Source: a virus. Taken from it: DNA of 64,000 bases. The stretch's first letter is position 1. Every line of letters begins with the position of its first letter. The notes beneath the pieces were generated by a model. It saw only the letters and a list, made by a program, of their open reading frames with translations, made no database searches and was not told the DNA's origin. Made by a program: the position numbers and the translations under genes. The stretch is taken from IMG/VR virus record IMGVR_UViG_3300027336_000001, positions 62,001 through 126,000 of that record. One strand, given 5' to 3'. Below are positions 537 through 48,501 of this stretch, in pieces.

Positions 537-3500
537 TTATTTTTCAAATACCATAGCATGAATAAGATTTGAAAAATCAAGAGAAGATGTCTTATCTTGA
601 GATTCTTTTTGTGGAATACAGCCTTCTTCAATAAATCTTGATACAGGAACAGTAACATATTTCCAAGTTTTATTAGCTGAATCCCAAGTTCTCTTAACAT
701 TAGTAGCAAGTACTCTAACAGAATCTTGACCACGAGTAAGAGCAACATAAGCTAATCGTCTTTCAGATGCTACTTCAGCTTCATGCTCTTTATCTGTCAT
801 TTCTTCTTTTTTATCTCTTGGGAATTGACTAGAGAAAATGGTGGTTAGGTTTTTACATTCCAAACCTTTCCATTGGTGCATGGTGTCAATAAGCATACCT
901 GTATTCTTTTCTTTAGCTTCAGCGACTTGAGTAATATATTTAGTAATTTCTTTCATCGCATCTCTTAAAGTAGTGATAGCTGGATTATCTCTAAAATTGA
1001 TAAGAGATTTCATAATATCTAAATCTGCTGATGTATCTTCAGCCTCCTCATCCTCTGCACCATCTGATCTAGTTTTTGGGAAAAAGGCTTCAGCGAAATC
1101 TCTAAGTTTTTCTCTTTGTGTTGCTCTATCAATCACCTTTTTTTGATCTTTTAACAGCAATAAAGAATTAAAACAATCTATAGGACTACCTGTAATTCGT
1201 CTAGCTTGTTTAAGAGTTCTAAGATAAACTTCAACATTTTTACGAACAGATGTTTCAGTGATAGGAAAATTATCCTCAGAAAGATCAGTTAAGAGATTAA
1301 CATTCTTTTTACTTTGCAATAAATCCCTAACAACAACATTGAAGTTCTTTTCACCTAAAAAGTAAGTGGGTCCTGTGTTATGCAAAGTTAAAACATAGTT
1401 ATTAAGTTCATCTACAGCAGAATCAGGCAAACTAATAAAATTTAGCCATTTGAATACATTCTTAAAATTGCTTTTCATTAAAGGATTGGTTTGTGATCGG
1501 AAAGGAATCTTTTCTTTTAATGCTTGCAATAAGAAAGGATATGCTTCTCTCTTAGATCTAGTAGCAACACCATAATCTTCTGCTTTTCCACCTAATTCAA
1601 TATGTGTTTTAATTTCTTCTATTAAGCGAATAGCATCACTATTAAAAGTAGTATCAGGTGTTACTTCATAATAAATAGAACCTGTGCCTTTAGCTGGAAC
1701 AGAAACACAAGTCATAGGAATTTGTTCATTATAAGAGATGAGTTTATTAGCAGTATCTACAATATCACCACCACTTCTAAAATTGGTAGGAATGATAGCA
1801 GTTTGGAAACCACCATTAAGAAGATCAGATTTACCAATAAATTCTTTAGGTGTAGCACCTCTAAATTCATAAATCGCTTGTTTATCATCACCAATCAAAA
1901 CATAAGATTCTGCTCTCATGCGACCATAAACTTTAGATTTAACATCAGGTTTATTTTGATCTTTCACAACGAGTTGCATTTCATCATCTGTATATTGCAT
2001 TAAGTTCGCAGGATTGATAGTGCCTGCAATTAAACCAAAGAAGATATGTTGAGATTGATTTAAGTCTTGTGCTTCGTCCACCATGATATGAGAATATTGT
2101 CTTTGTAAAGATGCTAAAAGAGCAGGTTTCTTTACAAGTAATCCAATGGTCTTAACAAGTTGGTCATCACCACTGCAATAACCTCTAAATGTAGTATCAT
2201 TTTCTTTAAGCCATAAATAAGCACCATAGACTGCGACTAAAGCATTATTAAGAAAGTTAGGTGGCAACATTTCTTTAACTTGTTTTACAGACATTACATT
2301 GTTGTAAAATTGAGATACTTTTTTATGAAACCAATCAGATTGTCTTTTATCTGTGTAGTTTTCCATATCTTTTTCTAAACTATATAATTCTTGAAACAAT
2401 TTATTATTCTTTAAAATGTTCTTTTGAACTTCAATATCAGATCCATTTAAACCTAAATTAAACCACATATTGGCAGGTGTATTTTTAAAATATGGTGAGT
2501 CTTTCGCTGGCAAACCTTTTTCACTTTTATCAGCTTCAGCTTCAAGATCTTCAAAGTTTTTAGCAGATGTTTTATTTGATTTACCAAACTTTTGAAGTCT
2601 TTCTAAATTCTCAAGTTTATCTTGAGCAAGTAATTTACCAAAAACTTTCTTGCCTCTTTCAGAATTGATCATGCTATTAAGATATTCTTTTTGACTAGCA
2701 TCTAGATCATAAGGCAAGATTTTATTTTTTTGAATGACATTCAAGAGAGCAATATCTTTAGCTAAAACTTGTTTTTCTTGAGGATTTGTATTTGGATCAT
2801 TCATGAAATAGTTAGCATATCCCATAAAGTTATTGATGATCTGAATATAGTTATTAATGTCTTGTTCTGTATATTGATCAAACATAGGCTTATTAGAAAA
2901 TTTGCCTACTTGATTTTTAGGAACATTAGGTGACATTTCAATTTGATTAAGAGCAATATCCACTAACTTGCCGTCTAAAGCATGATCTACTTTATTATTG
3001 TCTTTGGTATTCTTCATTAAAATTCTATATGCAATAGAATGTGATGTACCAAAACCATCACCATAGATAGCACCTTCACCTGCAAATTCAGGTTTTTGGA
3101 TTCTTTCTTTTAATTCAATAGCAGAGTTTCTAGTAAAAGATGTTGCCATGATTTTATTAGCAGGTACACCTTTTTCTTTAATAAGCCATGCAACACGACC
3201 TGCAAGAACACGAGTTTTACCTGAGCCTGCACCTGCGGCGATGATTGCTTTACCTTCTACAGTCATAGCAAGTTCTTGTTCAGGTGTTAGATTTAATCTT
3301 TTACCTGTTTCAGTGATATGTGTATCTGTACTGTGAATGGTGCTTGTTAAAGAATTTAAAATACTTTTAGCATCTTTACCTTCATTTTCATAAATTTCAG
3401 TGATGAGTGCTTGAAGTTTTTCTCTTCTTGCATCTTGAATATCAATATATTCTTTAGTGTTTGGATTTAAAGATCTAGCTTTTGTATCAAACTCTCTGAT

Positions 3501-4106
3501 TTCAGTAGCAATATTGATATAGCTTTCTTTGATCGCAATCATTTGATCTAATTTTTCCACTTCACTTGAATTGGTAATATTAGCATCAATCAATTTCTTA
3601 ATCCAAGATGTAGGTGATTTGGCACTTGTCTTTAAATATAAGAATGATGGAATATTGATCAAATTTTTCAAACTTTGTTTGGTCTTTTTTTCAAGCACAC
3701 CTTGATTAATATCTTTAATGTAATTGATCATTAAAGGATCATTTTCACCAAACTTGAGAATTTCTGCACTGTTTGTACTTAAATATCTAAAACAGCTTTC
3801 AATTAAACCTATTCTAAGTTGTAAACTTTCAGAACTGTATGTTTTTTTAGCTGAACGATATTTAGTGTAAAGTGGATTGAGTTTTTGTACTGTTGATACA
3901 ATCTCATCAAAAAACAGTCCACCAATTTCATTGATGCCATTAATGTTTAAACGATATAGTTCAAAACCTTCTGCTAATAAATCAGCAGGCATCTCTGTAC
4001 CTAATTCTACACATCTATCTAAAATCAAAAGAAATCTGCTCAAATCTAGCAGTGTCTTTTTATCAACGATTTCATCTTGTTCGTCATTTGCTCTTTTAAT
4101 TGCCAT
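537..4106 (-). CDS. UvrD/PcrA-type superfamily 1 DNA helicase with long N-terminal extension
   Basis: This 1189-residue protein carries the ordered motifs of an SF1A helicase, which would unwind DNA 3' to 5' using ATP. The Walker A is AGAGSGKT near residue 290, preceded by a TPEQ element. DEAQD lies near 677, GDDKQAIYEFRG near 739, HQWKGLE near 1074 and YVALTRG near 1120. All catalytic residues look intact. UvrD-family enzymes are usually 650-750 residues. The excess here is an N-terminal region of about 270 residues that I cannot place and a large insert between motifs Ia and II. The start MAIKRAND has a clear AAGGAT binding site. The gene at 4128-4967 lies just upstream in the same direction, probably in one transcript. 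A role in phage DNA replication or repair is inferred. Confidence 0.93.
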   Translation of the reverse strand: MAIKRANDEQDEIVDKKTLLDLSRFLLILDRCVELGTEMPADLLAEGFELYRLNINGINEIGGLFFDEIVSTVQKLNPLYTKYRSAKKTYSSESLQLRIGLIESCFRYLSTNSAEILKFGENDPLMINYIKDINQGVLEKKTKQSLKNLINIPSFLYLKTSAKSPTSWIKKLIDANITNSSEVEKLDQMIAIKESYINIATEIREFDTKARSLNPNTKEYIDIQDARREKLQALITEIYENEGKDAKSILNSLTSTIHSTDTHITETGKRLNLTPEQELAMTVEGKAIIAAGAGSGKTRVLAGRVAWLIKEKGVPANKIMATSFTRNSAIELKERIQKPEFAGEGAIYGDGFGTSHSIAYRILMKNTKDNNKVDHALDGKLVDIALNQIEMSPNVPKNQVGKFSNKPMFDQYTEQDINNYIQIINNFMGYANYFMNDPNTNPQEKQVLAKDIALLNVIQKNKILPYDLDASQKEYLNSMINSERGKKVFGKLLAQDKLENLERLQKFGKSNKTSAKNFEDLEAEADKSEKGLPAKDSPYFKNTPANMWFNLGLNGSDIEVQKNILKNNKLFQELYSLEKDMENYTDKRQSDWFHKKVSQFYNNVMSVKQVKEMLPPNFLNNALVAVYGAYLWLKENDTTFRGYCSGDDQLVKTIGLLVKKPALLASLQRQYSHIMVDEAQDLNQSQHIFFGLIAGTINPANLMQYTDDEMQLVVKDQNKPDVKSKVYGRMRAESYVLIGDDKQAIYEFRGATPKEFIGKSDLLNGGFQTAIIPTNFRSGGDIVDTANKLISYNEQIPMTCVSVPAKGTGSIYYEVTPDTTFNSDAIRLIEEIKTHIELGGKAEDYGVATRSKREAYPFLLQALKEKIPFRSQTNPLMKSNFKNVFKWLNFISLPDSAVDELNNYVLTLHNTGPTYFLGEKNFNVVVRDLLQSKKNVNLLTDLSEDNFPITETSVRKNVEVYLRTLKQARRITGSPIDCFNSLLLLKDQKKVIDRATQREKLRDFAEAFFPKTRSDGAEDEEAEDTSADLDIMKSLINFRDNPAITTLRDAMKEITKYITQVAEAKEKNTGMLIDTMHQWKGLECKNLTTIFSSQFPRDKKEEMTDKEHEAEVASERRLAYVALTRGQDSVRVLATNVKRTWDSANKTWKYVTVPVSRFIEEGCIPQKESQDKTSSLDFSNLIHAMVFEK

Positions 4107-4127
4107 TTTATAACATCCTTTTTTATG

Positions 4128-4967
4128 TTAAATGTTGTAATCTTTTAAAAGACCTAAAAGTTTTTGTTTTTCTTCATTTGACAGTTTAATACCTTGTCTT
4201 GCTTTATTAATCATAATCAAAGTATATGTCTTATCCACAGGTGATGCTACTTCTGTTAAAGCTACCAATCTTGCCATTGCTCTTTCTTGTTCAGGTGTCA
4301 TTACAATACCTTTAATAGCAGATGGAGCATCTGTATATGTCTTTGGTGTAGATACAGGTCTTTCATAAGTAGGTCTACTTGGCTCAAATGATGGTCTAGG
4401 TTCAAATGATGGTCTAGGTTCAAAGGTTTTCTTTGGTTCTGCTTTGTTTCTTAAAAACTTAGCAATCGCATCTTCCTGAGCAACAGTCAAAATATTATTA
4501 TTTGTGACTTTTTCGTGCATACTAGTTAAGAAAGTATTCTTTTCCCAACCATAAACACTTTCAATATCTTCTAACAGATTTTTCTTATATTCTACACGAT
4601 CTTCAATCTCTGCAATCCTGTCATAAAAACCTTTGGCATTGTTATACACAGAAGACCAATGCTCTACACCATCTTTCCATGTTTTTTTCCAATTTAAAGT
4701 TCTTTTGAAATGTGAACGATCTGCATCTTTCTTATTTAATAACTGCTTTGTTACTAAACTCACAAGACTTAACTTCATTGAACCTTCAGCATATCCCATA
4801 GATCCACTGCTTGCAGTTTGTGTAGATGATAGCTTAACTGCTACTACATCTGATAAATGAATATAGTAGATACCTGCCATTCGTGGATCTTTTGTCCATT
4901 TATTTGGCAAACTATCTAACCATTCTTCCAATTCTTCTCTTGTAATATCAACATAAGAAACAGGCAT
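4128..4967 (-). CDS. unknown protein with proline-rich linker, upstream of the helicase
   Basis: This 279-residue protein has three visible parts. Residues 1 to about 110 form a domain with the stretches VVAVKLSSTQT, MKLSLVSLV and FKRTLNWKKTW. I have a vague memory of similar stretches in other phage and plasmid proteins but no function for them. A linker near residues 180-215 repeats the unit FEPRPS two to three times and continues with more Pro and Arg. The C-terminal end is helical. The gene ends 21 bases before the helicase start and is transcribed the same way, so a joint role in DNA transactions is plausible but unproven. The start at 4967 follows an AAAGGAT binding site. Confidence 0.75.
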   Translation of the reverse strand: MPVSYVDITREELEEWLDSLPNKWTKDPRMAGIYYIHLSDVVAVKLSSTQTASSGSMGYAEGSMKLSLVSLVTKQLLNKKDADRSHFKRTLNWKKTWKDGVEHWSSVYNNAKGFYDRIAEIEDRVEYKKNLLEDIESVYGWEKNTFLTSMHEKVTNNNILTVAQEDAIAKFLRNKAEPKKTFEPRPSFEPRPSFEPSRPTYERPVSTPKTYTDAPSAIKGIVMTPEQERAMARLVALTEVASPVDKTYTLIMINKARQGIKLSNEEKQKLLGLLKDYNI

Positions 4968-5035
4968 TTTTATATCCTTTGTGAAAAATAAGTTTACTAT
5001 TAGGTTATTCTTTTAATGATTATTAAATTTTTAAA

Positions 5036-5057
5036 CCTTTGTTAAACTTAACAAAGG
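5036..5057 (+). promoter_or_regulatory. perfect inverted repeat holding the ribosome binding site of the giant surface gene
   Basis: CCTTTGTTAA at 5036-5045 and TTAACAAAGG at 5048-5057 are perfect complements separated by two bases. The AAAGG at the end of the right arm is the only good ribosome binding site for the ATG at 5069. As RNA this would fold into a hairpin of eight to ten base pairs that hides the binding site. As DNA it is also a good dimeric operator. Either reading implies control of the downstream gene. Confidence 0.6.
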
Positions 5058-5068
5058 TAGATCCATAT

Positions 5069-8000
5069 ATGAACAAAACATTTTTTCTTTTTCTCTTGAT
5101 ACCTTATGTTGCATTCGCTCAACTTAAAGTATCTACTATTCCTTATGTGCAATCTAATCCTGATATTCCACATATCGCAGTAAATGGTTTACCTACTCAT
5201 TTACAAGCTATTGCTGAAGGATGTAACTCTTATTCTTATCGTTGGGATGTAAATGGTGATGGTGATTTTAATGATGCTAGTGAAACAAGTACATCAATCG
5301 CTGGTAATTCATTTTTTGCACCTTTACATTTAGCATATCAATATCCTAATGCTTTAGGTAATACTTATATTTATCCTAAAGTAGAAGTGACTTGTGGCAG
5401 TGAAATTGCCACAGCTACTATGCCTGTTCTTATTCATGTAGATCGTATCTGTGATAATTACTATAATGATCCTTTAAATGCAAATTGCACAGCGAACGAT
5501 GGCAACCTAAATCTTACAAGACAAATTTATTCTAGTAGAGCAGTAGATATAGCCTTATGGTATTTATTTAGACAAGCTATCCATAAAGGCAATGATTCAC
5601 TTGGACATAATGAACATCTTTGTTATGTAGCAGGTAATCAAACTTTATATTCCACAGGTATGGCATTAAATGTTTTTTTAAGAAGAGGACATGGCTTTGG
5701 TCTTAATAGAGATAATGATCCATATTATAGACACTTTACTCAATGTGGACTACATTCTATTTTATCTACAATGCAATTAAAGAACATAGGATTTACAGAT
5801 ACAGATACATTAGGTAATGCAGGTAAAGGAATGGAATTTGTTGCGACTAATAATTTAAGTGCTTGGTTTTGGTCTAGCTATGAATCAACAGCATGGTCTG
5901 AGCCTTTGGCAAATTTTGGCAACTCATCTTATATTTCACCTGTAGGTAGACAAGGTATTTTTGGCAATGATCTTAAAAATATTGGTCAAGACATTATAGA
6001 TGGTCTTTTACAATGTACTACATCTGATGGTGCATGGTTTTACACTTGCAGTAATATGGCAGGTGTTACAGACGATGCCTCAACAAATGGTTGGGCACCT
6101 GAAGCCATTCGTATTCTTAAAAGAAAATTTAATAATGTAGATTATGAAAGTTTTAAAACAAAACAAAGAGATTGGCTGTCACTTTATTGTCCAAATGGTA
6201 TATGTTATTATGATGGAAATGGTAATGGCAAACTAGCAGGTAATACTCTTGTTGGTTATGGCTGGACAGAAAACGAGGATTTAAATACAAATGCACAAGT
6301 TAATGCTTCTATTAATGCTATCCAATCTTGGTATGTTACTGATAACAGCCATTGGGGTCTTTACTACATCTATGCTTCTACAAAAGGTCTTAGATCTTTT
6401 TCGCCAGAAATAACTTATTTACCTAATGGTACTCATTGGTCTAATGAATATACAGATTTCTTTCTCACAGGTAAAAATGCCACTAAAAATTCTAATGGTG
6501 CATCTAAACAACAAGCTAATGCGACTTGGACTTGGACAGGTAATTGGCTATGGGCAGGTTCTTTCTCTACTAATGAAAAAACATCTGTTATTACTCAAAT
6601 CATTCAATCATGGTTAGAAGTTCAACCTTATGCCAAAGCAACACCACAATTAATATCACCTAACACACCTGTCACTTTTGATCATTCATGGTCTTATGCA
6701 CTTGATCCTGAAGTTAGCATTGTGCAATTTAAATGGAATGTTGTAGATGATTTATTAACAGAAGATCTTAATGCGAATGGTAAGATAGACAGTAATGAGA
6801 TCGTATGGGATTTTACTACTAATGATCTAAATGAAAAATTTACATATACATATACAAATGATGTCAGTTGGGGACAAACCATTAAACAAAAAGTCATTTT
6901 AAGAACGATTGATAATCTTAATCGTATTGTAGATGATGAAAATGCAGTATCTATAAGCATCAGTAAATATAACCATGCACCTATTGCTATTGCTCAAACC
7001 TTTACAGGATATACAGGTCAAACCATCACTTTAAATGCTAACCTGTCTTATGATGCAGATAGCAATCAAGATCCTTATCCAAACCATCCTAAAGATTTTA
7101 TTTCTTCTGTGGAATTTGATTCAAACCTTGATGGAGTTTTTACTACAAGCGAATCGTCTTATCTAGTACCTAATAACTTATCTAAGATTTCTATACCTTT
7201 TAAAATTTGTGATGATGGTCAATGGACAGATGCTTGTCTTGATGGTGTAGAAAAAACAGATTGCTCTTTATGTAGCTTTGGATCTGTAATTGTTAATATC
7301 TTGCCAAATACACAGCCACCTGTCATTGTAGAAGATGTTCTTAATAATCTTATTAATCTTAACCAATCATTTGATCCTGAATCTTTAAGTGTGTCTTATC
7401 AAGTAGAAGTCTTATCAGGACAAGGCAGTTTAAATGAGATTTCCACAGGCATTTATGAATATATTCCTATAGGTGATGGATTTAGAGTAGATACGATTAA
7501 AATCACAGCCACAGATGCAGGTGGTCTTGTTTCAACAAAAAACATTTATATCGAAGTGCCAAACCTTCCACCTGTCATTCAAGAGATTTCAGTTGAACAT
7601 AGAAATCTAAATCCTATCATTTCATCCGTGCAAATAGAAAAACAAGGAAATGGATTTTATGAGATTCAAGTTTATGCACAACCAAATCCTTTAATAGAAG
7701 TGAGAGCCTTAGCTACGATTACAGATTATGATCCATTTATCACAGCAACCTTTAATGACAATATTGTTATAGATACACCACCATATATAACACCATATAT
7801 ATTAAGCACAGGTACAGGTATTTTTACTTTAAATGCTTTTGATGGTTCAGATGCTAGTGAAACAGTTAGTAAACCTTATTCATTTGAGAAAGCAAGTAGT
7901 TTAATCTATACTATAGATATAAATGACAGTGCATATTTAGAAGTAGTAAATAGCAGTCTTAATACATATACCTTTAAAGCGAGCAGTGATACAACACCTG

Positions 8001-10174
8001 TAAGCATTATGGTAAAAGACAATTTAGGATTAGCAACAGAATACACAACAATTATAGATACAGGAAATCAAGCACCTGTCATTTTAGATGTAGATATAAC
8101 ACGGAATACAAATCTAGTAACTGTCTTTGTAAATGCTACTGATATGGATAATGACAGTTTGCAATATGAATTTAATGCAGGTGATGGTAGTACATCTATG
8201 GTAAATAACACAGGCATTTTTGTTTATACATATTCATCCTATGGTAGTTTTAGTCCAAGTGTGCGAGTGATAGATAGTATAGGATCACAAGCTACAAAAA
8301 ATTTAGAAACTTTAAACTTTATGGAAAACTTGCCACCTGTGATAAATGCAGTAACAAGTCTTATTGGATATGCAGGTAAATGCTGGTTAGTAGTAGATGC
8401 TACTGATCCAAATGGTGATGAGTTATCTTATGAAGTGAGAGTACATGATCAAGTATTTACTAAACTAGATTTTGATTTGCCATATCAAACAGAACCTTAT
8501 CTTGCTTTAATCACAGTTAAAGATACAAGTGGTTTAAACACTACAATCTCAACACAAATTCAAATAGTGGATGCACCTACAATCTTAAACATTAATAAAC
8601 ATTTACTAGCAGGTGGTAGTTATTTAATAGTGGCTAATGCGAGTGATCCTGATACGAATGCTTTTAAGTATTATTGGAAAGTAAATGCAGATCAAGACTA
8701 TGAAGAAAGAACGAACTTAGAGATTTTTAATTTGGATGTGAATCAGCAACATACAATATATCTTAAAGTAAAAGATCTTTGGTCAAATGTAGAAACAGAA
8801 GTGTCTTTAAATATTGAGCCTACACCTGTACCTGTGATTTCAGATGTAGATGTTGAAATAGGTGTAGGTGGTGTAGTGAGTTTAAGAGTTATTAGTGATA
8901 CTTATTTTCAAAGCTATGAAGTAGATTGGAATGATGGTACTGTTAATTCTTATTTAGAACATAAATATGCTTGGAAAGAAACACCATATTTAATAAAGGT
9001 CAAAGGTTTCACATCTAATAAGCAATCTGAAGTATTTACAAAAGAAGTGCAGGTGGTCAATCATCCAACAGAAGTAAATGAAGTACAGGTATGGCAAGAT
9101 GATGGTATGATTTCTTTAAATGTTTTAGCAGATGATCCTGATGTGGATGATTTGTTATATACGATAGACTTTGAGATGGATGGCATACTTGAAAGAGAGA
9201 GAAGTTGGAATGGCAGTAAAACATATGAAGCACAGAGAGCAGGCTTATTACCTGTGAAGATTTTGATTTATGATGAGTGGTCAAATACAACAACAGAAGT
9301 TATTAAACAGATTGATGTGCAGTCATGGTTATTAACAGTAGATAATGTGCAAAGTGAAGAAGGCAGGTGTGTGATTTTAAGTGCAGAAGAATTAGACAAT
9401 CCGAAAGTGAATTTAGAAAATTGTAATCTTGAATCGGATCTGACAAGTGATTATTTATGGTTATTAGAAAACGAGGCAAATAAGCAAGGTGAAGAAGTGT
9501 CTTATTTATTTGAAGATGATGGTATCTACACAATAAAGATGATTTCACCTTATGGATATTACAATAAGATTAGAGTTCATGTATCAAATGTAGCACCTGT
9601 GTTTATAAGTGTACCTGATATGATAGCATATGCAGGCAGGACATATAAATATGATATACGAGTAAAAGATCAAGGAGCATTTGATTTAATAGAGATGAAG
9701 TTAGGTGCAGGATCGCCAACAGAAATGACAGTAGAGCAAATAGATGATAATTTATTTAGATTAGAGTGGCAAGTGCCTAGTAATTTAGCAGGAACAGAAG
9801 CAAGTGTAAATTTAATAGCATTAGATTATCAAGGTGCAGATGATCATTATATGTATGATGGTGGACGAACAGAACAGTCATTTAGGATAAGAGTATTAAA
9901 TGGCAATAATTTAGTGAATGCAGGTGATATGAATGTAAGCGATATGTCAGTGAGTGATATGGCAGTAAATAAGCAAATAGATATAGATCAGATGATAAGA
10001 GATATGAGATTGGTGGATTATGATTTAGTGCCTGTGATGTATGAAGATAAAGGGAATACGAAAAAGACAAAGTTTCAAGGTGGCAGTTGTCAAAATGTAG
10101 ATCAAGCGACTAATTTGATAATGATGTTAGGTATTTTAGTTTTATTTACAAGGATGTACTTTAGGAAAAATTAG
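5069..10174 (+). CDS. giant secreted, repeat-rich surface protein with MYXO-CTERM-like tail
   Basis: This 1701-residue protein begins with a clear signal peptide (MNKTFFLFLLIPYVAFA, cleavage after AFA). I place the start at 5069, where AAAGG lies 11 bases upstream, rather than at the in-frame TTG at 5039. Residues of about 150-520 form a Trp- and Cys-containing domain with stretches such as DGAWFYT and DDASTNGWAPEAIRIL, loosely like alpha/alpha-toroid repeats. From about 690 to 1640 there is a string of Ig/PKD-like beta domains. Several begin with a P-P/A-V-I signature, near 747, 831, 999, 1086, 1250 and 1507. Near the end is an Asp-Met-rich run (VSDM three times), then GGSCQ at 1671-1675, a hydrophobic segment and a basic tail RMYFRKN. 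Signal peptide plus Gly-Cys, membrane segment and basic end is the layout of MYXO-CTERM surface sorting tags. It is probably exported and anchored on the host surface. Whether it acts in exclusion, adhesion or lysis is unknown. Confidence 0.88.
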   Translation: MNKTFFLFLLIPYVAFAQLKVSTIPYVQSNPDIPHIAVNGLPTHLQAIAEGCNSYSYRWDVNGDGDFNDASETSTSIAGNSFFAPLHLAYQYPNALGNTYIYPKVEVTCGSEIATATMPVLIHVDRICDNYYNDPLNANCTANDGNLNLTRQIYSSRAVDIALWYLFRQAIHKGNDSLGHNEHLCYVAGNQTLYSTGMALNVFLRRGHGFGLNRDNDPYYRHFTQCGLHSILSTMQLKNIGFTDTDTLGNAGKGMEFVATNNLSAWFWSSYESTAWSEPLANFGNSSYISPVGRQGIFGNDLKNIGQDIIDGLLQCTTSDGAWFYTCSNMAGVTDDASTNGWAPEAIRILKRKFNNVDYESFKTKQRDWLSLYCPNGICYYDGNGNGKLAGNTLVGYGWTENEDLNTNAQVNASINAIQSWYVTDNSHWGLYYIYASTKGLRSFSPEITYLPNGTHWSNEYTDFFLTGKNATKNSNGASKQQANATWTWTGNWLWAGSFSTNEKTSVITQIIQSWLEVQPYAKATPQLISPNTPVTFDHSWSYALDPEVSIVQFKWNVVDDLLTEDLNANGKIDSNEIVWDFTTNDLNEKFTYTYTNDVSWGQTIKQKVILRTIDNLNRIVDDENAVSISISKYNHAPIAIAQTFTGYTGQTITLNANLSYDADSNQDPYPNHPKDFISSVEFDSNLDGVFTTSESSYLVPNNLSKISIPFKICDDGQWTDACLDGVEKTDCSLCSFGSVIVNILPNTQPPVIVEDVLNNLINLNQSFDPESLSVSYQVEVLSGQGSLNEISTGIYEYIPIGDGFRVDTIKITATDAGGLVSTKNIYIEVPNLPPVIQEISVEHRNLNPIISSVQIEKQGNGFYEIQVYAQPNPLIEVRALATITDYDPFITATFNDNIVIDTPPYITPYILSTGTGIFTLNAFDGSDASETVSKPYSFEKASSLIYTIDINDSAYLEVVNSSLNTYTFKASSDTTPVSIMVKDNLGLATEYTTIIDTGNQAPVILDVDITRNTNLVTVFVNATDMDNDSLQYEFNAGDGSTSMVNNTGIFVYTYSSYGSFSPSVRVIDSIGSQATKNLETLNFMENLPPVINAVTSLIGYAGKCWLVVDATDPNGDELSYEVRVHDQVFTKLDFDLPYQTEPYLALITVKDTSGLNTTISTQIQIVDAPTILNINKHLLAGGSYLIVANASDPDTNAFKYYWKVNADQDYEERTNLEIFNLDVNQQHTIYLKVKDLWSNVETEVSLNIEPTPVPVISDVDVEIGVGGVVSLRVISDTYFQSYEVDWNDGTVNSYLEHKYAWKETPYLIKVKGFTSNKQSEVFTKEVQVVNHPTEVNEVQVWQDDGMISLNVLADDPDVDDLLYTIDFEMDGILERERSWNGSKTYEAQRAGLLPVKILIYDEWSNTTTEVIKQIDVQSWLLTVDNVQSEEGRCVILSAEELDNPKVNLENCNLESDLTSDYLWLLENEANKQGEEVSYLFEDDGIYTIKMISPYGYYNKIRVHVSNVAPVFISVPDMIAYAGRTYKYDIRVKDQGAFDLIEMKLGAGSPTEMTVEQIDDNLFRLEWQVPSNLAGTEASVNLIALDYQGADDHYMYDGGRTEQSFRIRVLNGNNLVNAGDMNVSDMSVSDMAVNKQIDIDQMIRDMRLVDYDLVPVMYEDKGNTKKTKFQGGSCQNVDQATNLIMMLGILVLFTRMYFRKN

Positions 10175-12614: not shown

Positions 12615-12643
12615 ATAACACTTAGGAATAAGAATAATTGCAA
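12615..12643 (-). promoter_or_regulatory. conserved promoter, copy 2 (TTGCAA-17-TGTTAT)
   Basis: The minus strand reads GAAC-TTGCAA (12643-12638), a 17-base spacer, then TGTTAT (12620-12615). It matches the other four copies, including the AG just before the -10 box. It heads the small-protein operon and is back to back with the promoter of the GMP reductase-like gene. Confidence 0.75.
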
Positions 12644-12687
12644 GTTCACTTAAAAATATTTTTATTTTGTCTTATCTGTTTTCAATG

Positions 12688-12693
12688 TATAAT
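12688..12693 (+). promoter_or_regulatory. TATAAT -10 box of the GMP reductase-like gene
   Basis: TATAAT with a preceding TG (TGTATAAT) lies 29 bases before the ATG at 12722. A loose TTGTCT lies about 15 bases upstream. It is divergent from the conserved promoter at 12615-12643. Confidence 0.5.
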
Positions 12694-12721
12694 TTCTTTG
12701 TTTAAAAAGGAGTATCTACAA

Positions 12722-13705
12722 ATGCTATTAAAGACTTTCAATGACTATCTCATTTCACCTCAATATTCTAGTATCGCATCAAGAGATGAAATTGATTTAA
12801 GTTCATCTCTTGGTAATCAGAAATATGCTTTACCTATTATCTCATCACCAATGACTACTGTCACAGAAACAGAGATGGCAATCGCAATGCAATCTAAAGG
12901 TGGTCTTGGTATCATTCATAGATATAATAGTATTGTTGATCGTACTCATCTTTCTTTTAATGCTAATAAAGCCTGTGTTGCTTTTGGCTGTAATGAACTA
13001 GACAGTATAGACAAGTTTATTAATGCAGGCATCACAACCTTTTGTTTAGATGTTGCACATGGTCATACTAAAATCGTAGGTGATACATTAAAAGAATTGA
13101 AAGCAAGACATAAAGACATTTATGTAATAGCTGGCAATGTAGCTACACAAGATGGATATGAGTTTTTAATAGATCATGGTGCAGATGCAGTTCGTGTAGG
13201 TATAGGTGGTGGTTCTATTTGTACTACTCGTATTCAAACAGGACATGGTATTCCTACATTAGCTAGTGTTTTTGATTGTGCTAAATCTACATATGAAAAA
13301 CCTATTATTGCAGATGGTGGAATTAAGACAACAGGTGATATGGTAAAGTGTTTGGCAGGTGGTGCAGATTTTGTCATGTTAGGTTCATATTTAGCAGGTA
13401 CAGATGAAGCCCCGGGTAGAGTACATACAGATGAACAAGGTAATAAATATAAGAAGTATGTAGGTATGGCAAGTAAAGAAGCACAATCTCAATGGCGAGG
13501 AAATGTAAGATCAGTAGAAGGTGTAAGTCATCAAGTGAATTACAAAGGATCAGTGTTAGATATATTAGATGAGATAGCAATTAATATTAAGAGTGGATTA
13601 AGCTATAGTGGAGCAAGGAATATTAGAGAATTGCAATTAACAGCAAAGTGGGTAGAGATTAGTAATCAAGCATATGCAGAAAGTCAAGCACACATCTTTA
13701 ATTAG
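12722..13705 (+). CDS. guaC: IMP dehydrogenase/GMP reductase family enzyme, GMP reductase-like
   Basis: This 327-residue TIM-barrel enzyme of purine metabolism has the loop GGGSICTTR with catalytic Cys near 167, the phosphate-binding IIADGGIKTTGD, and GSYLAGTDEAPGR. There are no CBS domains. Several features favour GMP reductase (GMP to IMP plus ammonia, with NADPH) over IMP dehydrogenase. It is short, it has the RSVEG segment where GMP reductases carry RASEG, it has YSGA near the end, and the Arg-Tyr pair of the IMP dehydrogenase flap is not seen. The C-terminal AESQAH recalls IMP dehydrogenase, so the direction is not settled. The start follows AAAAAGGAG at ideal spacing. Channelling G nucleotides toward A would suit an AT-rich phage. 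It overlaps the convergent gene by eight bases. Confidence 0.85.
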   Translation: MLLKTFNDYLISPQYSSIASRDEIDLSSSLGNQKYALPIISSPMTTVTETEMAIAMQSKGGLGIIHRYNSIVDRTHLSFNANKACVAFGCNELDSIDKFINAGITTFCLDVAHGHTKIVGDTLKELKARHKDIYVIAGNVATQDGYEFLIDHGADAVRVGIGGGSICTTRIQTGHGIPTLASVFDCAKSTYEKPIIADGGIKTTGDMVKCLAGGADFVMLGSYLAGTDEAPGRVHTDEQGNKYKKYVGMASKEAQSQWRGNVRSVEGVSHQVNYKGSVLDILDEIAINIKSGLSYSGARNIRELQLTAKWVEISNQAYAESQAHIFN

Positions 13706-14117
13706 GATTAGAAGGATAACAAACAAAGCTGGTGACAACAGTAGCAACAGTAGCTAAACCTGATACACCTAATTGTAGGTAGTTTCCATTTTTACAGTGT
13801 TTAAAATCTACTTCACATTCTTTCTTTTCGATAGCAATTTGGTTATTGACTTGGATAAGTCTTAAAATTTCAGCATCTTTTTCTCTAAGCAGGTTATCTT
13901 TTTCAACGAGTAGTTTTTCTAATTTCTTAACATTATCATTTAAGAAAGGTAATATGGCAAGGCTACTGAGATCTACTTTGGCAGATTCTTTAATGGTTTC
14001 AGCAGTTTTAGCAAGTTGGTTTTCATGTTGAAAAATCAAAGGTGATAAAAGGTAGTCTTTATCTTCTTGAGCAAAAGTATATAAGGGAAAGAATAAAAAG
14101 CAGGCAAGGTATTTCAT
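13698..14117 (-). CDS. exported protein with coiled coil and C-terminal membrane segment, possible spanin-like protein
   Basis: This 139-residue protein starts at 14117 (MKYLACFLFFPLYTFAQ), a clear signal peptide. A charged heptad-rich region of about residues 55-100 (KLEKLLVEKDNLLREKDAEI) should form a coiled coil. A hydrophobic segment near residues 113-130 ends in YPSNPN. A periplasmic coiled coil between two membrane-associated ends is the layout of spanins, which disrupt the outer membrane at lysis, but no lipobox is visible and no lysis genes adjoin. An ATG farther upstream at 14150 has no binding site and would put charged residues before the signal peptide. It is divergent from the methyltransferase gene. 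Confidence 0.7.
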   Translation of the reverse strand: MKYLACFLFFPLYTFAQEDKDYLLSPLIFQHENQLAKTAETIKESAKVDLSSLAILPFLNDNVKKLEKLLVEKDNLLREKDAEILRLIQVNNQIAIEKKECEVDFKHCKNGNYLQLGVSGLATVATVVTSFVCYPSNPN

Positions 14118-14137
14118 AGGGTATCTTTCTTTAGTTT

Positions 14138-14147
14138 GTATAATATA
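14138..14147. promoter_or_regulatory. GTATAATATA -10 element between divergent genes
   Basis: GTATAATATA lies in the 44-base gap between the exported protein (start 14117, minus) and the methyltransferase (14162, plus). Read on either strand it contains a near-consensus -10 box. The same ten bases occur at 15961-15970 and, inverted, at 45606-45615, each in a promoter position. Confidence 0.5.
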
Positions 14148-14161
14148 CATAAACTTATTAT

Positions 14162-17874: not shown

Positions 17875-20097
17875 TCAACCAATAGCTAAAACATGACCTC
17901 TTGGAATTAAACCTAATGCTACATATGGCAAGCCTGTGACAGTATCTCTATCTGATCCACACATAATAAAACCAACACTTGTACCTTTACTAGATAAAAC
18001 TAAAGCACCACCACCACGAATGGTAGTAACAACTTCACTATTAACTACTGCACTAGCAACACCATTGAGAGTAGCAATACCACTTAAAGCATTCACAGTA
18101 GCTACACCTGCAGTAGCATTTATTATTGCACTTGCAGGTGTAAGATTAATAGCATTTGCTCCAACAGTCATATTTAAAGCACCTGCACCAATGACAGTAT
18201 TTTTAGTACCTGATGTAATGAGATCGGTAATATTGCTAGTAGTCAAATAAGTATTAAGTTCATCACCAAAAGCAACAACCTTTTCATCTACAATACCTGC
18301 GACTTGACCTGTTGCAGGTGATGCCAAAATCTTTGTAGATCGTGGCGGTCCACTTAACATATTAAAGTCTTTGGGTCCACTAATGGTAGTACTTGAACCA
18401 CCCATAATGGTTTCATTTTTACCTTTAGCTGAAATATTGATTGATTCAGCACTACCAAAATTTAAAGCACTTTGAGATTTAAGTACAACTTGACCTGCAT
18501 CAGCTAAATTTACAACAGGAGCAGATAAGTTTATTCTTTCATTAGAGCTAAGATTGATCGTATTGACTGCATTAATATTAATAACTTTATTGGATTTTAA
18601 ATCTACATTGTTGCCAGCATTAAGAGAAACCTGTCCACCTAAGTTCATATCCAAATTACCTGTAGTTTGAACATTTACTTTTTGAGCAGATAGACCAACA
18701 CCACTATTGACTTTAGCCTTAATGCCATATTCAGTAGTAGCATTACCTATAAATGCTCTTAAAGCACCACCTTTGGTAAAAGAAATAAAAGATGCAGGAT
18801 CACCACCAACAACAGGTTGTACTTTTAATAAAGTAGCAGAATGTTCTTGTAAATCTAAAGTAGAAGCATCTACAAGAGAAGAACCTGCACCAAATTCAAT
18901 TTTAGGTGATAAAGGTTTACCATATAAATCTTTACCTGTTAAAGTAAATGCTTCATTACCGACTACAGAACCTAAAACAAATTCAACAAAAGGTAATTTA
19001 TCTTTGCTTTCTTTAACATCAGGCAGTCTATCAGAATCAAAACCATCTGTCTGTTCAGATACAGGTAAAGTGCCATCAGTTAAGTGATTAAGTTCGATAC
19101 GATATTCAGTAGCCATGTTAGTATTAAAAGATGCTTTGCCTTCTGTATTTAATCTAAGAATAGCTTTGCCACCATAAACAAGACTTCTAGTTTCACTTTC
19201 ATTTTCAAAAAACTCATTAACAAGGTTAGCATTGTAAACGAATTTATATGGATCAACAGTGATGAAACCATCATCTTTCTCAAAGTTGTTTTTTTCATTA
19301 AGACTTTCTTTTCTAAAAAGATGGTGTGGTTTATAGTTATCCTGTGAAACAGTATCATTTTTAAAATTTCTTTTAGGTTTGCCATCTACATCTAATTGAT
19401 ATGGATCAGACCAATCACTACCATCAGAGATAAGTTCTTTAGGTAAAGTTCTAGCATCTCTTTGAACAATGCCACCATAAATTCTAGCACCACTCATTGT
19501 ATGGAATTGTTGTTGGGATCTTACAACAAATGCTTGATCTTGATCTCTCAATCTAATTTCATTTGCTCGCCTATTAGATAATAAAACACTTTCATCTAAA
19601 ACAAGATCAGAGCCTTGAGATGAAGATGCACCAATATTGCCAGCTTGAAAGTGTCTTAATTTATTTCTAATACGATGACTAATACCTTTAAGTTCAATTC
19701 TATCTTTAGGTGTATTGAGCATACCTTCTTCAGTAGTAGTAGATTGAGTAGGCAACCAATCATGTCCTAGAAAAGGTGATTTGGGAAACCAACCTAAAAT
19801 AGCAGGTTTTCTTTTCCCATCTTGATCAGCAGACATCCAGCCTACAATACAAAGATCATTAATATCAGGAATAGCACCTAAGAAATGTCTAGCACCAAAA
19901 GCAGGCAGGATAATTTCAACACCTGAATAAATAGGTTCATCTTTTTCACCTTGCACAACTTTAATATCACATCTAAGTTCTTCAGCATAAACTTTAATAA
20001 TGCTTGCGAGAGAGATAGAAAGTTTAGACCATCCTTGAGAAGATGATTTAGGAGCAAGTTCATTTCTTAAATTATTAGTGAGAGTAGTATTACTCAT
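17875..20097 (-). CDS. baseplate central spike protein (gp5/VgrG-like)
   Basis: This is a 740-residue protein. Residues of about 45-110 (IYSGVEIILPAFG, GWMSADQDGKRKPAILGWFP) look like the OB-fold domain of phage spike proteins. From about 445 to 600 the chain repeats short alternating polar and hydrophobic units (NLDMNLGGQVSLNAGNNVDL and similar), as in the triple beta-helix needle of T4 gp5 and VgrG. The last 130 residues continue Gly-, Ala- and Thr-rich. No lysozyme domain is seen here. The neighbouring hub carries a peptidase-like domain instead. The start ATGA overlaps the stop of the hub gene. It would pierce the host outer membrane at the tip of the tail tube. Confidence 0.85.
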   Translation of the reverse strand: MSNTTLTNNLRNELAPKSSSQGWSKLSISLASIIKVYAEELRCDIKVVQGEKDEPIYSGVEIILPAFGARHFLGAIPDINDLCIVGWMSADQDGKRKPAILGWFPKSPFLGHDWLPTQSTTTEEGMLNTPKDRIELKGISHRIRNKLRHFQAGNIGASSSQGSDLVLDESVLLSNRRANEIRLRDQDQAFVVRSQQQFHTMSGARIYGGIVQRDARTLPKELISDGSDWSDPYQLDVDGKPKRNFKNDTVSQDNYKPHHLFRKESLNEKNNFEKDDGFITVDPYKFVYNANLVNEFFENESETRSLVYGGKAILRLNTEGKASFNTNMATEYRIELNHLTDGTLPVSEQTDGFDSDRLPDVKESKDKLPFVEFVLGSVVGNEAFTLTGKDLYGKPLSPKIEFGAGSSLVDASTLDLQEHSATLLKVQPVVGGDPASFISFTKGGALRAFIGNATTEYGIKAKVNSGVGLSAQKVNVQTTGNLDMNLGGQVSLNAGNNVDLKSNKVININAVNTINLSSNERINLSAPVVNLADAGQVVLKSQSALNFGSAESINISAKGKNETIMGGSSTTISGPKDFNMLSGPPRSTKILASPATGQVAGIVDEKVVAFGDELNTYLTTSNITDLITSGTKNTVIGAGALNMTVGANAINLTPASAIINATAGVATVNALSGIATLNGVASAVVNSEVVTTIRGGGALVLSSKGTSVGFIMCGSDRDTVTGLPYVALGLIPRGHVLAIG

Positions 20098-23000
20098 TTG
20101 CCACCACCTATTAATTTGCTTTGGTTAGATTGCCAAACTTCAGCTTTAGAGAAGTTATCGTTAGCCATTTTCTTAACAAGTTGTTCTTGACCAACATTGA
20201 CATAGTTATATGCACCATCAAGACTTATACCTAAAAGCTGTAAATCTCTATCATAAGATCTACAATCACAGACATTACCTTTTTGATCAAAGTTTGGAGT
20301 AATATCTTGAAGTTTCTTTGGCACGGATTCAATAATAAGACCTTGATCAACAGAAGTTTGATTTACAGGCTGGTTAGCAAGACCACTATCAATAATATTT
20401 GTAGACATTTCTTTATTTAAATTCGCATCTGAATTGACTGCATTTTTAATTGTATTGCTACCTTCTTGAATAGTGACATTAGCAAGTTCACTGCCTGCAA
20501 CATCTTCTTTAGTGTCCTCTAAATTTACAGAAGATGTTTTATCTTTCTTTAATAGTTTTTCAAAAGATCCATTTTTTCTTAAAGTCAATCCTCTGCCATA
20601 AGGATAACTACCAAATACTTCATAACCATATTCATCAGATACAGGGAAAACAGGCATAACAGTAGGATCATTATTATAAGCACCTGCACCACTAGCAAGA
20701 CTATTACTTGGAGTGAGATTAAAACCACCTGTAAGACTTAAAAGGATTTTTAAATCTTTTTGAAGTTTATCAATATTTTCACCTTGAGTATTAAAGACAT
20801 TTTGGACAGCTTGTGGATTTTCTTTAGCTTTTTTAAGATCAGTAAGTACAGAATGTTTTTTTTCTAGTTTAGCCATAAGGTTAGTAACAATGTTATTAAG
20901 TTTAATTTTATAGACACTGTCATTAGGATTAGCTTTTGGAGTTTGAGCAGGTGGAATAAAATCTTCAGGAAGGAAACGATAAAGATACCAAATAATATCT
21001 TTTTTTCGTTTAGTTTTAACAACACCTGTACCTTCTTTACCATCTGGATGTAGTCCAAACGAATTACCATCTACACAGATAATATAATCTTGATGGATTT
21101 CAGCACAAAGAGCAATATGTTTACCATGTTCAGCAGATTTATTAGTGGGTGCACCTGTTTCACTATCAATACCATTAAAGATAACAATATCACCTACTTT
21201 GATTTCTGCATTTTTATTTTTATAGTAATCGATAAATCTAGGAGTATTTCCCCATTTACTAAAAATGCCACCACATCCACCTAAAAATCCACCATCATAA
21301 ACACTAGGTTTAATTGCACCACTTTCTTTAATGCAATATTGAGCAAAAAGACCACACCATGCGACTTGACAATCATAACGATAATCTCGTCCTGTATATA
21401 TATCTAAATATGTTTTACTTGGTGTTGCACACCATCTTTGATTAGCAGGATCAAGACGAGCATTTGCAACACCTATTTTATCAGGTGATACAGGTGCATC
21501 ATAAATATCTCTTGACCATTCTCTAATCGCAACACCTAGAATCCTTTGGATACCTTCACCATTAATTTCTATATAATCACCTACAAGAGATTTGCCATCA
21601 CCATCACATAAAGAACCATTTGCATATGCTTGGAAAATATCCTCATTTATATCATCTATTTTATCTTTATCAAATAAAACTTCGCAAATATTCTTATTGA
21701 TTTGTGGATCATTAGCACCAATCTTCTTTTCTCTTAATAAAGGTCTACCATTACTAAATAATTGATCACGGATAATTTTGGCAATTTGAGAATAAGAAAT
21801 ACCTGTCATTTTTCCCATAGGTGTGCCTTGAGTTTGCTCTGTAATAACAGTAGTAGGTATCTCTAAATCTATCTTTTGAAAAGCAAGACCTTTGATTTCA
21901 CTTGTAGGTACAATTTCCTGTGGTTGTCCAATGTTCTTAAAGATACGAATACCTGTCTTAACAAAATTAGGATCATCTACAAATTCAATAAGATTACCAT
22001 CAGTATTAGCATTAGTAGGATCAGGCATTACAACATTTACATTTTTAAGATTGGGATTAGCCTCTATTCTAGGTGGTTGCTTAAAATCTACTTTGCCTTT
22101 CTTTACTGATATTTCAATTGCACCTTGCATTTGAACATCAGGATGAGAGCAACTATAATATCTATAATGTCCAGCGACAGCACCACCAAAGGTAGATTTT
22201 CTTGTAGCTAAATTTGCAAGGATATTTGCTTTACTGCCTTGACCAAAAGCTGTTGTATTTGATGATCTATATGATTTAACAAGATCTACCAATTGACTTA
22301 AAGTGACTTTCTTATCTGCAATAGATTGTTGTTGTCCAATATCTACAGATGTAGTAGGTATTTCATCAGGTAGAGATTGGTTTTGTACATTAAGTTCATT
22401 ACTAGCAATTTGATCTTGGCTCAAATCATTACCTTTAATAGAATTATCTTTAGGTTGGACTGCATTAGTAGAGTTATTAGGTGATATACTAGCTTGTGTT
22501 CCTAATTGACTTGTAGCATCTTTAACATCAAGAATACCTATGATTTCACCTTCACCATCTGTACTAGCAGGATTTCTAACAAAGAAGGGTCCATTAAATA
22601 GAGGATTACCTTTATTTAAATCACTAGATGCTTGAGGTGCAATTTGTAAAATACCTGCATTATGTGCTTCAAGGATAAGCATATTAAGATGTTCAGGTGT
22701 AGAGATTTCAATATTATCTTGACCTGATGGTAAAGAAGTAGGATTGATTTTAGTTTGGTCAATAGCCATAACTACATTAGGAAAACCACAGACACGAACA
22801 TTGCCTTCCGTGTCTAAAGAATTGAGATATTTATTAGGCTGAGAGATATTAGCTAGATCGACAGCTTTACTACTGTCTTGTGCATAAGAAGTGTTAGAAC
22901 TGCCGGGCAGGATAAATTTCTTTCTTCTGCAAACAAGAGTTAAAGAAGTAGTGCAATCACCACCAAAAGAAAAAGAATGACTAACAGCTTCTACATAATA

Positions 23001-24551
23001 AAAGCAATCTATATGTTCAATATAGATAGGATAACCTGCTTTTAATTCAGGTCTTAAAGGAATAGTGAGTGTACAGCCTTCAACATCTTTATTAAGAAGA
23101 TCAAGTTTAGCAGATGCCATATAGAAAGCAGATTTAGGATCTTTAATATGAGTGGCATCAAATTGATTTTCTCGCCATCCAAATTTAGCAACTAAACGAT
23201 AATCTACATATTGTGCTTGAGGTGCAATTTGTTGGTTATCTACAAGACCTGTCATATTGCCAAACATACTACCTTTACAGACAACATAGGTAGCATTAGG
23301 TTCTTTTTGAGTAAAACCTAAATCTACAATATCTTCAGGTTTAATAGTATAGACACGATTACCTTTAACATTAAGATTAAACATAGGTGGTTTAAAAACA
23401 AGATCACCATCTACATCTTGAAAAAATTCCCAATTTGTTTTTTCAACGACAGTATCTGCAATACCTAATTTAGTTTCATAAGTAGATTGATAAGAATCAA
23501 ATTGACCAACACTGCCAACATCTAAAGTAAAAGGTTGTATTTGTTCTGTGTCTGTACCTGTCAAAGGTACTTCAATTAAATCATATTGTCTAAGAACTCT
23601 AGGATCAAGAGTGTTATCTACTCTTTGTTGAGAGTTCATTGTAGGTAAACCATTTTGAGATCTAGGACTTAAAGAACCACTATTAACAATAAGCTGATCT
23701 ATATAAGCATCTGCACCATTAGTAAGAAGATTGCCTGATGCACCATACATTCTTAAATTATAAAGACCTTGAGAAAATCTAGTTTCCCAATATTGTAATG
23801 CTTGTTGCCAAAGTTCATCACCACCTTGAGAAGATAAATTACTAACACCATTGATTACATAACCTAAATCATTTTTTTGAGCCCCACCACGATCTTTAAA
23901 TAGATATTTAATAATTTGATGTGGTGTCCAGCCTGTGAACACATGACCTGTAGGTTGCATTTGAGCATTAGGTACAGATTCAAGTGATGCTGATTGTGTG
24001 ATGATATGTTGATATTGCCAAAAATGTAATAAACCATTACACGATAAACTGCCTGAATAAAAGCCACCACTATATGTGTAATTTACACTTGTAACAACAC
24101 CATGAAAGACAGGATAATAAGGTTTCATTTGTAGATCAGCTAAATCATATTCTTCATCACCATAATCAATGATTTCTGATTCAACTAAATTCTGGACATT
24201 AAAAAAACCACGATAATAGACATTGATCTCTAAGCCTACACATAAAATAAAAGTACCATCTTTAAAGATGCTATCACCATGATGTTTAGGTATAGAAAAA
24301 TTAATAGAAGATGATGATGATGAAGATGTATTACCTGCTTCAACATTAACAGATGTAATAAAAGGTTGGAAATCTATTTTATTTTTACATTCTTGACAGC
24401 CTATTAAAGCAGTATCACCATTAATATAGACAAGAGCATCGGGTGACCATGTATGTACTTTTCTAAAATTAGGTTTCCATGATCCTGCATAAGGTCTATT
24501 TTCAATTCTTGAAGTATTAACAAAGCTAGTGCCTTTAGTAGTAGTACTCAT
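20094..24551 (-). CDS. baseplate hub protein with internal CHAP-like peptidase domain
   Basis: This protein has 1485 residues from the ATG at 24551 (MSTTTKG), which lies directly after the stop of the upstream gene. An ATG at 24665 would lie inside that gene. Residues of about 45-560 are beta-rich, with FSIPKHHGD and FHGVVTSVNY, as in gp27/gpD hub proteins. Near residues 1010-1190 lies a CHAP/NlpC-type amidase or endopeptidase module. It has Cys in CQVAWCGLFAQYC, then GDIVIFNG, then the probable catalytic His in EHGKHIALCAEI and VDGNSFG. The C-terminal 290 residues are low in order and contain CDCRSYDRDL. It probably caps the tail tube and cuts peptidoglycan during infection. The ILPGSS codons are CCC GGC. 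The length is unusual for a hub. Confidence 0.85.
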   Translation of the reverse strand: MSTTTKGTSFVNTSRIENRPYAGSWKPNFRKVHTWSPDALVYINGDTALIGCQECKNKIDFQPFITSVNVEAGNTSSSSSSSINFSIPKHHGDSIFKDGTFILCVGLEINVYYRGFFNVQNLVESEIIDYGDEEYDLADLQMKPYYPVFHGVVTSVNYTYSGGFYSGSLSCNGLLHFWQYQHIITQSASLESVPNAQMQPTGHVFTGWTPHQIIKYLFKDRGGAQKNDLGYVINGVSNLSSQGGDELWQQALQYWETRFSQGLYNLRMYGASGNLLTNGADAYIDQLIVNSGSLSPRSQNGLPTMNSQQRVDNTLDPRVLRQYDLIEVPLTGTDTEQIQPFTLDVGSVGQFDSYQSTYETKLGIADTVVEKTNWEFFQDVDGDLVFKPPMFNLNVKGNRVYTIKPEDIVDLGFTQKEPNATYVVCKGSMFGNMTGLVDNQQIAPQAQYVDYRLVAKFGWRENQFDATHIKDPKSAFYMASAKLDLLNKDVEGCTLTIPLRPELKAGYPIYIEHIDCFYYVEAVSHSFSFGGDCTTSLTLVCRRKKFILPGSSNTSYAQDSSKAVDLANISQPNKYLNSLDTEGNVRVCGFPNVVMAIDQTKINPTSLPSGQDNIEISTPEHLNMLILEAHNAGILQIAPQASSDLNKGNPLFNGPFFVRNPASTDGEGEIIGILDVKDATSQLGTQASISPNNSTNAVQPKDNSIKGNDLSQDQIASNELNVQNQSLPDEIPTTSVDIGQQQSIADKKVTLSQLVDLVKSYRSSNTTAFGQGSKANILANLATRKSTFGGAVAGHYRYYSCSHPDVQMQGAIEISVKKGKVDFKQPPRIEANPNLKNVNVVMPDPTNANTDGNLIEFVDDPNFVKTGIRIFKNIGQPQEIVPTSEIKGLAFQKIDLEIPTTVITEQTQGTPMGKMTGISYSQIAKIIRDQLFSNGRPLLREKKIGANDPQINKNICEVLFDKDKIDDINEDIFQAYANGSLCDGDGKSLVGDYIEINGEGIQRILGVAIREWSRDIYDAPVSPDKIGVANARLDPANQRWCATPSKTYLDIYTGRDYRYDCQVAWCGLFAQYCIKESGAIKPSVYDGGFLGGCGGIFSKWGNTPRFIDYYKNKNAEIKVGDIVIFNGIDSETGAPTNKSAEHGKHIALCAEIHQDYIICVDGNSFGLHPDGKEGTGVVKTKRKKDIIWYLYRFLPEDFIPPAQTPKANPNDSVYKIKLNNIVTNLMAKLEKKHSVLTDLKKAKENPQAVQNVFNTQGENIDKLQKDLKILLSLTGGFNLTPSNSLASGAGAYNNDPTVMPVFPVSDEYGYEVFGSYPYGRGLTLRKNGSFEKLLKKDKTSSVNLEDTKEDVAGSELANVTIQEGSNTIKNAVNSDANLNKEMSTNIIDSGLANQPVNQTSVDQGLIIESVPKKLQDITPNFDQKGNVCDCRSYDRDLQLLGISLDGAYNYVNVGQEQLVKKMANDNFSKAEVWQSNQSKLIGGGK

Positions 24552-24552
24552 G

Positions 24553-33522: not shown

Positions 33523-33594
33523 TAGATGTAAAGCATAGATAAATATCTTATAAGTAGATCATTCATTATCACTTTGAAAGATGACTACTTAAAA

Positions 33595-48499: not shown

Positions 48500-48501
48500 T
48501 C

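Follow-up and report, generated by a model that had tools for sequence, protein, structure and literature searches.

A giant exported-type protein of a Myxococcota surface family encoded by an uncultured jumbo phage

An isolated gene in an uncultured phage genome raises the question of why a virus would encode a protein of 1701 residues that begins with a signal peptide and ends in a segment resembling a bacterial sorting tag. We examined this gene within a window of 64,000 nucleotides (the whole stretch of DNA that was analysed), which lies within a jumbo-phage record of 195,689 bases. As an earlier sequence-only reading had stated, the gene sits among phage genes: a terminase, a tail sheath protein, a PolA-type DNA polymerase, a helicase and tail proteins were all found around it. 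The large terminase shares 68% identity with the one encoded by LR745208, the genome of an uncultured phage, which measures 485 kb.

The reading frame (1701 codons plus stop) is real, with an ATG preceded by an AAAGG Shine-Dalgarno site located 11 bases upstream; a mechanical open reading frame beginning at TTG 5039 gives a longer version whose start is no better. The gene is the lone plus-strand gene at this place and is flanked by minus-strand genes. Shine-Dalgarno sites of this kind precede 24 of the 35 genes checked in the window. A Bacteroidota host, which we considered and set aside, is unlikely for this low-GC phage because it uses AAAGGA Shine-Dalgarno sites. An inverted repeat read from the sequence (Table 1) would cover the site in front of the giant gene and could act as a translation regulator or an operator; in the related phage contig L010 its AACAAAG and CTTTGTT words are present in a different arrangement.

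Table 1. Features of the giant gene and its immediate surroundings (positions in the window)
Feature	Position	Strand	Details
Giant surface protein gene	5069..10174	+	1701 aa; orthologues at L010:9947-15100 (82% aa identity) and L394:9944-15109 (53%)
Signal peptide, residues 1-17	5069..5119	+	MNKTFFLFLLIPYVAFA, then Q; by eye from sequence
N-terminal region, residues 18-545	5120..6703	+	Includes residues 128-545, the 'toroid' of the sequence-only reading; 44-55% identity with Myxococcota homologues
PKD/Ig-like repeat region, residues 546-1611	6704..9901	+	Pfam PKD_4/PKD; tblastn alignment to residue ~1635 in host homologue L335
Acidic Asp-Met-rich linker, residues 1612-1656	9902..10036	+	GDMNVSDMSVSDMAV...; fast-evolving (49% aa identity, dN/dS 0.36)
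C-terminal sorting-tag-like tail	10037..10171	+	YEDKGNTKKTK-FQGGSCQNVDQAT-hydrophobic helix-TRMYFRKN; Cys at 10088-10090
9-bp inverted repeat	5035..5058	+	ACCTTTGTT-aaactt-AACAAAGGT (6-base loop); Shine-Dalgarno site AAAGG at 5053-5057
Upstream neighbours	537..4967	-	UvrD/PcrA-type helicase (537-4106) and 4128-4967; syntenic in L010; flank, outside the system

The domain plan proposed from the sequence alone was largely borne out. The signal peptide is plain by eye, and each relative carries a typical one of different sequence (MKYLLIFLLLFSSLYA in L010, MKTLLPLLLVLPIHLLA in a third phage, L394, and other ones in the host homologues). The Asp-Met stretch, the GGSCQ motif, the hydrophobic segment and the basic tail (the FRKN end) are all present. 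The proposal of six or more Ig/PKD repeats holds in part: Pfam recognizes PKD_4 (3.3e-10) and PKD (1.1e-6) with only two stretches significant, and the remaining Ig-like units, visible only as recurring D-P/D-x-D...Y motifs, are plausible rather than proven.

Relatives in phages and in one Myxococcota order

The gene was found in three related phages and in at least two genomic places. The copy in L010 (a 316-kb contig) is 82% identical to the window protein over the whole frame and has the same neighbours, with the helicase and the 4128-4967 homologue upstream and an IMPDH-family gene downstream. The copy in L394 (an 85-kb contig) is 53% identical and lies in a different place, downstream of the DNA polymerase; that phage and the window phage share 59% identity in the sheath and 71% in the polymerase. 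Identities among the three giant proteins range from 51 to 82%. In L013 and L015, two related phages represented by fragments only, the gene is absent at the IMPDH locus. Outside this group, the sole match among known phages was a weak one to an Ig stretch, in phages of Salinibacter, and a plasmid collection gave none.

The giant gene is under purifying selection in these phages. Between the window and L010, dN/dS is approximately 0.17 overall, falling to 0.10 for residues 128-545 and rising to 0.36 in the Asp-Met linker. Conservation of the whole frame, at 82% with a dN/dS of 0.17 in L010 and at 53% in L394, goes beyond what chance would give.

Homologues outside phages were reached through a DNA pattern of the period-5 Asp-Met linker, which gave five matches in two related Myxococcota MAGs (G001 and G002). 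The pattern does not serve as a marker by itself, its matches lying mostly in unrelated proteins, and an early contig scan with poor patterns of the N-terminal region gave no match. The N-terminal region itself (alignment A4) was used to search 379 Myxococcota genomes and found matches in 14. Twelve are strong and span the whole domain (E values of 1e-134 to 1e-212; best match 707 bits, E 1.1e-212), and two are weak. All 14 genomes belong to a single order, which is represented by 16 genomes. Of two control phyla, that of a Colwellia (G387) contained no match in 398 genomes, and that of a Desulfocapsaceae member (G383) contained two weak partial matches of 22-27 bits in 395 genomes.

Most complete homologues share one plan, comprising a signal peptide, an N-terminal region of ~530 residues, PKD/Ig repeats, a linker and a Cys-helix-basic tail. 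The homologue L335 (G001:C45, 1860 aa) aligns to residues 19-1635 of the phage protein at 37% identity (tblastn) and is located among metabolic genes on a chromosomal contig. By homology and domain order, the phage protein is a member of this order's giant surface family, as exemplified by L335, by L340 (G113:C87) and by further members of what is so far an unnamed family; all are alike in their signal peptide, N-terminal region (44-55% identity), PKD/Ig stalk, linker and Cys-helix-basic C-terminus. The phage version differs from them in being encoded by a jumbo phage, in its low GC content and in having no OmpA/SPOR or GDSL genes beside it. Its tag is also shortened relative to the G001/G002 orthologues, and is without their YATxx insert.

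At the L335 locus a gene for a GDSL-type (esterase-like) protein lies upstream and one for an OmpA + TSP3 + SPOR protein lies downstream. A paralogue fused to OmpA-/SPOR-type sequence is encoded in the same genome as L335. The two arrangements, adjacency and fusion, are represented by L390:1654-9262 and L341:2125-10185. From this arrangement, the host giant protein and its OmpA/SPOR neighbour probably form one outer-membrane or surface complex.

In a phylogenetic tree the three phage copies form one clade (support 100/100) that is sister to the paralogues of the G001/G002 family (100/99); the branch leading to the phages has a length of 0.46, which is long, and their composition differs, so that the exact sister group could shift. 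A single capture of the gene is the simplest reading of this tree. The suggestion that the protein offers a clue to the host was thereby sharpened: homology leads to one Myxococcota order, and the gene likely tells which bacteria this uncultured virus infects. Comparison of one 20-kb stretch of the phage with the order's 16 genomes revealed no CRISPR spacer or shared DNA. The assignment would place an uncultured jumbo-phage clade in an order for which few such phages are known.

The C-terminal tail

The sequence-only reading had described the tail as MYXO-CTERM-like and had proposed a profile search as its check, regarding the lack of a match to sorting-tag models as evidence against it. That search was negative: none of the three phage tails (window, L010 and L394) matched the curated MYXO-CTERM models TIGR03901 and TIGR03382 at E<=10. 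Taken literally, that outcome would overturn the sequence-only reading. A model match is nevertheless too strict a demand, because the tags of the G001/G002 family are a variant, most of which escape the curated model, and the part of the description that stands is a Cys-helix-basic tail at the position of the host tags.

The tail is retained in all three phages and shows the order of elements expected of such tags (alignment A6), with an invariant cysteine and a transmembrane helix followed by basic residues at the very end of the protein. The same ending at the same place is seen in seven complete host homologues; others end in a SPOR domain or have no tag. One of the seven, L340 (from genome G113), passes TIGR03901 with 22.3 bits against a cut-off of 20. 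Ordinary MYXO-CTERM tags score above the cut-off in 14 of the 16 genomes of the order, often with dozens per genome, whereas G001 has none above it and G002 very few.

A profile made from the phage tails and five G001/G002 tails located 34 places in G001 and 20 in G002. Those inspected are mostly the C-termini of other proteins, and bear tags such as RFAGGSYGVANCDQ, NFAGGSFQASHCDQ, SGCDQ, RFAGGSYGVANCDQSSNHQ..., NFAGGSFQASHCDQSS..., AGCDQASKH... and SSCEQHH.... The family uses a tag variant of the form xxSC[DEQ]Q, at times FAGGS....CDQ, on dozens of proteins (e.g. L413-L418 and L419-L438). The phage tail FQGGSCQNVDQ has the F-x-GG, the S-C and the polar, Q-rich stretch in common with that variant, which the standard model largely fails to reveal.

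Scored with a profile of 23 host-family tags containing no phage sequences, the window, L010 and L394 tails reach 8.7, 13.8 (the highest) and 4.9 bits, compared with -0.4, 2.8 and 1.6 bits under a profile of the order's ordinary tags. Segment-preserving shuffles attain the host-family scores in 85/2000, 49/2000 and 426/2000 cases, with the 23 tags themselves having been gathered by a query that included the phage tails; we regard the resulting support for a phage tag as modest. A hidden Markov model of the ordinary tags did not separate the phage tails from shuffles, and pairwise alignments of the phage tail with single host tails were mostly not above shuffles. Positional homology is the stronger argument, with the cysteine and the F-x-G motif invariant in the three phages and in the host protein L335.

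A further comparison is with the substrates of myxosortase. In Myxococcus xanthus, TraA is exported by Sec, is held by its C-terminal helix and is predicted to be lipidated at a cysteine; cleavage by MrtX is then followed by type II secretion to the surface (PMC11980579). Like TraA and other bearers of the TIGR03901 tag, the phage protein has an N-terminal signal peptide and a C-terminus composed of a Cys motif, a transmembrane helix and basic residues. It differs in the absence of a curated-model match, in having FQGGSCQ in place of a GCGC-type motif and in its weak K/R tail (TRMYFRKN). Genes of the myxosortase fold (PF02517) were absent from the two phage records searched. Such proteins occur in G001, G002 and G203, and also in 11 of 14 controls, so that finding them in the host family is consistent with such processing but no more than that.

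Possible roles during infection

We consider it quite likely that the phage encodes a captured giant surface protein of one Myxococcota order that is exported and becomes anchored on the infected cell through a host pathway. The phage has retained what appears to be the whole host plan, from the signal peptide, N-terminal region and PKD/Ig stalk to the acidic linker and a putative variant MYXO-CTERM tag. By analogy with TraA, Sec would take the protein across the inner membrane during infection, and its C-terminal helix would hold it there. Lipidation at the cysteine and cleavage would then fall to a myxosortase-type pathway of the host, after which the protein would reach the surface of the infected cell by type II secretion.

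The phage protein probably redecorates the infected cell. Once at the surface it would displace or compete with the host orthologue and most likely alter what binds to the cell, either by masking a receptor against other phages or by acting in a dominant-negative manner on a host surface complex. Superinfection exclusion or such a dominant-negative effect is our first guess at the benefit. Phage envelope proteins that exclude superinfection include T5 Llp and T1 Cor, which are small lipoproteins. What they would share with the present protein is the idea of a phage envelope protein that blocks or masks a receptor; the giant protein differs in its 1701 residues, its capture from a host and its C-terminal anchor.

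We suggest more tentatively, as a possibility somewhat short of probable, that a jumbo-phage clade has domesticated a host social or surface protein together with its sorting tag. The result would be a phage-encoded client of myxosortase-type sorting that rewrites the surface identity of the infected cell, through receptor replacement, kin recognition, contact or predation. The architecture is known from host surface proteins, and the novelty lies in finding it put to use by a phage: in the literature records available to us, no MYXO-CTERM-type tag was described on a phage protein, those naming both being concerned with myxobacterial biology. The gene offers a concrete way to ask whether phages remodel the surfaces of predatory and social bacteria via host sorting machinery.

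The main rival, which we hold to be rather unlikely, is that the N-terminal region is an enzyme (for example a glycan-active alpha/alpha-toroid) that assists release or spread by trimming glycans of the host's capsule or matrix, or those linked to peptidoglycan, with the tail as a temporary hold. This region is the best conserved part of the protein in phages (dN/dS 0.10) and in hosts, many Trp, Tyr, Cys and Asp residues are invariant in its alignment with the host proteins, and the host gene adjoins the GDSL-esterase-like gene. Such conservation would equally fit a binding domain, and no catalytic motif was found. Pfam and PDB profile searches (the latter with a profile from 19 sequences) gave no match for the proposed toroid, and two AlphaFold2 runs on two to three phage sequences only were uninformative (pLDDT 28-30).

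It is unlikely, too, that the tail is a plain membrane anchor that keeps the protein in the inner membrane facing the periplasm, where it might interfere with DNA entry or with the host OmpA/SPOR complex. The tail does score below all tag models, the window protein has a short basic end (FRKN), and OmpA and SPOR domains, to which the host paralogue is joined, act in the periplasm. Against a plain anchor stand the invariant Cys and F-x-G ahead of the helix in the three phages and the host, and the variant tags of the host family, which have in common a Cys followed by D, E or Q and often then by Q.

A virion component (a tail fibre, decoration or appendage whose hydrophobic ends are incidental) appears very unlikely. 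Ig/PKD domains are frequent in phage tail and decoration proteins, and the window encodes other large tail proteins; against this, the signal peptide and Cys-helix-basic tail recur in all three phages, and its homologues, encoded by hosts, are exported proteins that match it in plan and length class. In the window and L010 it is a lone plus-strand gene between the helicase and the IMPDH-family gene, and in L394 it lies near the DNA polymerase rather than in a structural operon. The earlier view that this is no tail fibre was supported: it is a surface-type protein of Myxococcota kind, bearing a signal peptide and encoded at an isolated position that differs between phages.

The least probable reading, that recently captured host DNA is carried as a useless passenger, could draw on the host-type gene, its isolated position and its absence from that place in L013 and L015, but is already disfavoured by a single clade spanning three substantially diverged phage species (51-82% identity), by a locus shared between two of them and by strong purifying selection.

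Other genes of these phages

Several further genes in the window and its relatives are of separate interest. An IMPDH/GMP-reductase-family enzyme is encoded at 12638-13705 of the window. An adenylosuccinate-synthetase-like protein at L004:1187-2248 has PHROG 1211 (the 2-amino type) as its best match, yet retains GDEGKG, and a QueC-like protein is encoded at L003:15182-15982. Together these three genes suggest an altered purine supply or modified DNA. In L015, four tandem paralogous DNA methyltransferase genes (6095-9910) adjoin the IMPDH gene.

A small protein at 13698-14150 of the window, which is kept in L010 and L013, combines a signal peptide, a coiled coil and a hydrophobic C-terminal part, and resembles a spanin or another protein of the envelope. 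The tail-type protein encoded at 20094-24665 is a possible tail-associated lysin, as its residues 1099-1223 weakly match an endolysin family (PHROG 9589). Three tandem minus-strand genes of ~290 aa each occupy 46755-49374, at least two of which (46755-47627 and 47624-48499) are close paralogues. Finally, a helicase of 539 aa at 33574-35193 of the window has a relative of 981 aa at L015:16483-19428, in which an insertion after GLGK, beginning CVVGDT.. and ending ..VGNGITSHN, appears by eye to be an intein.
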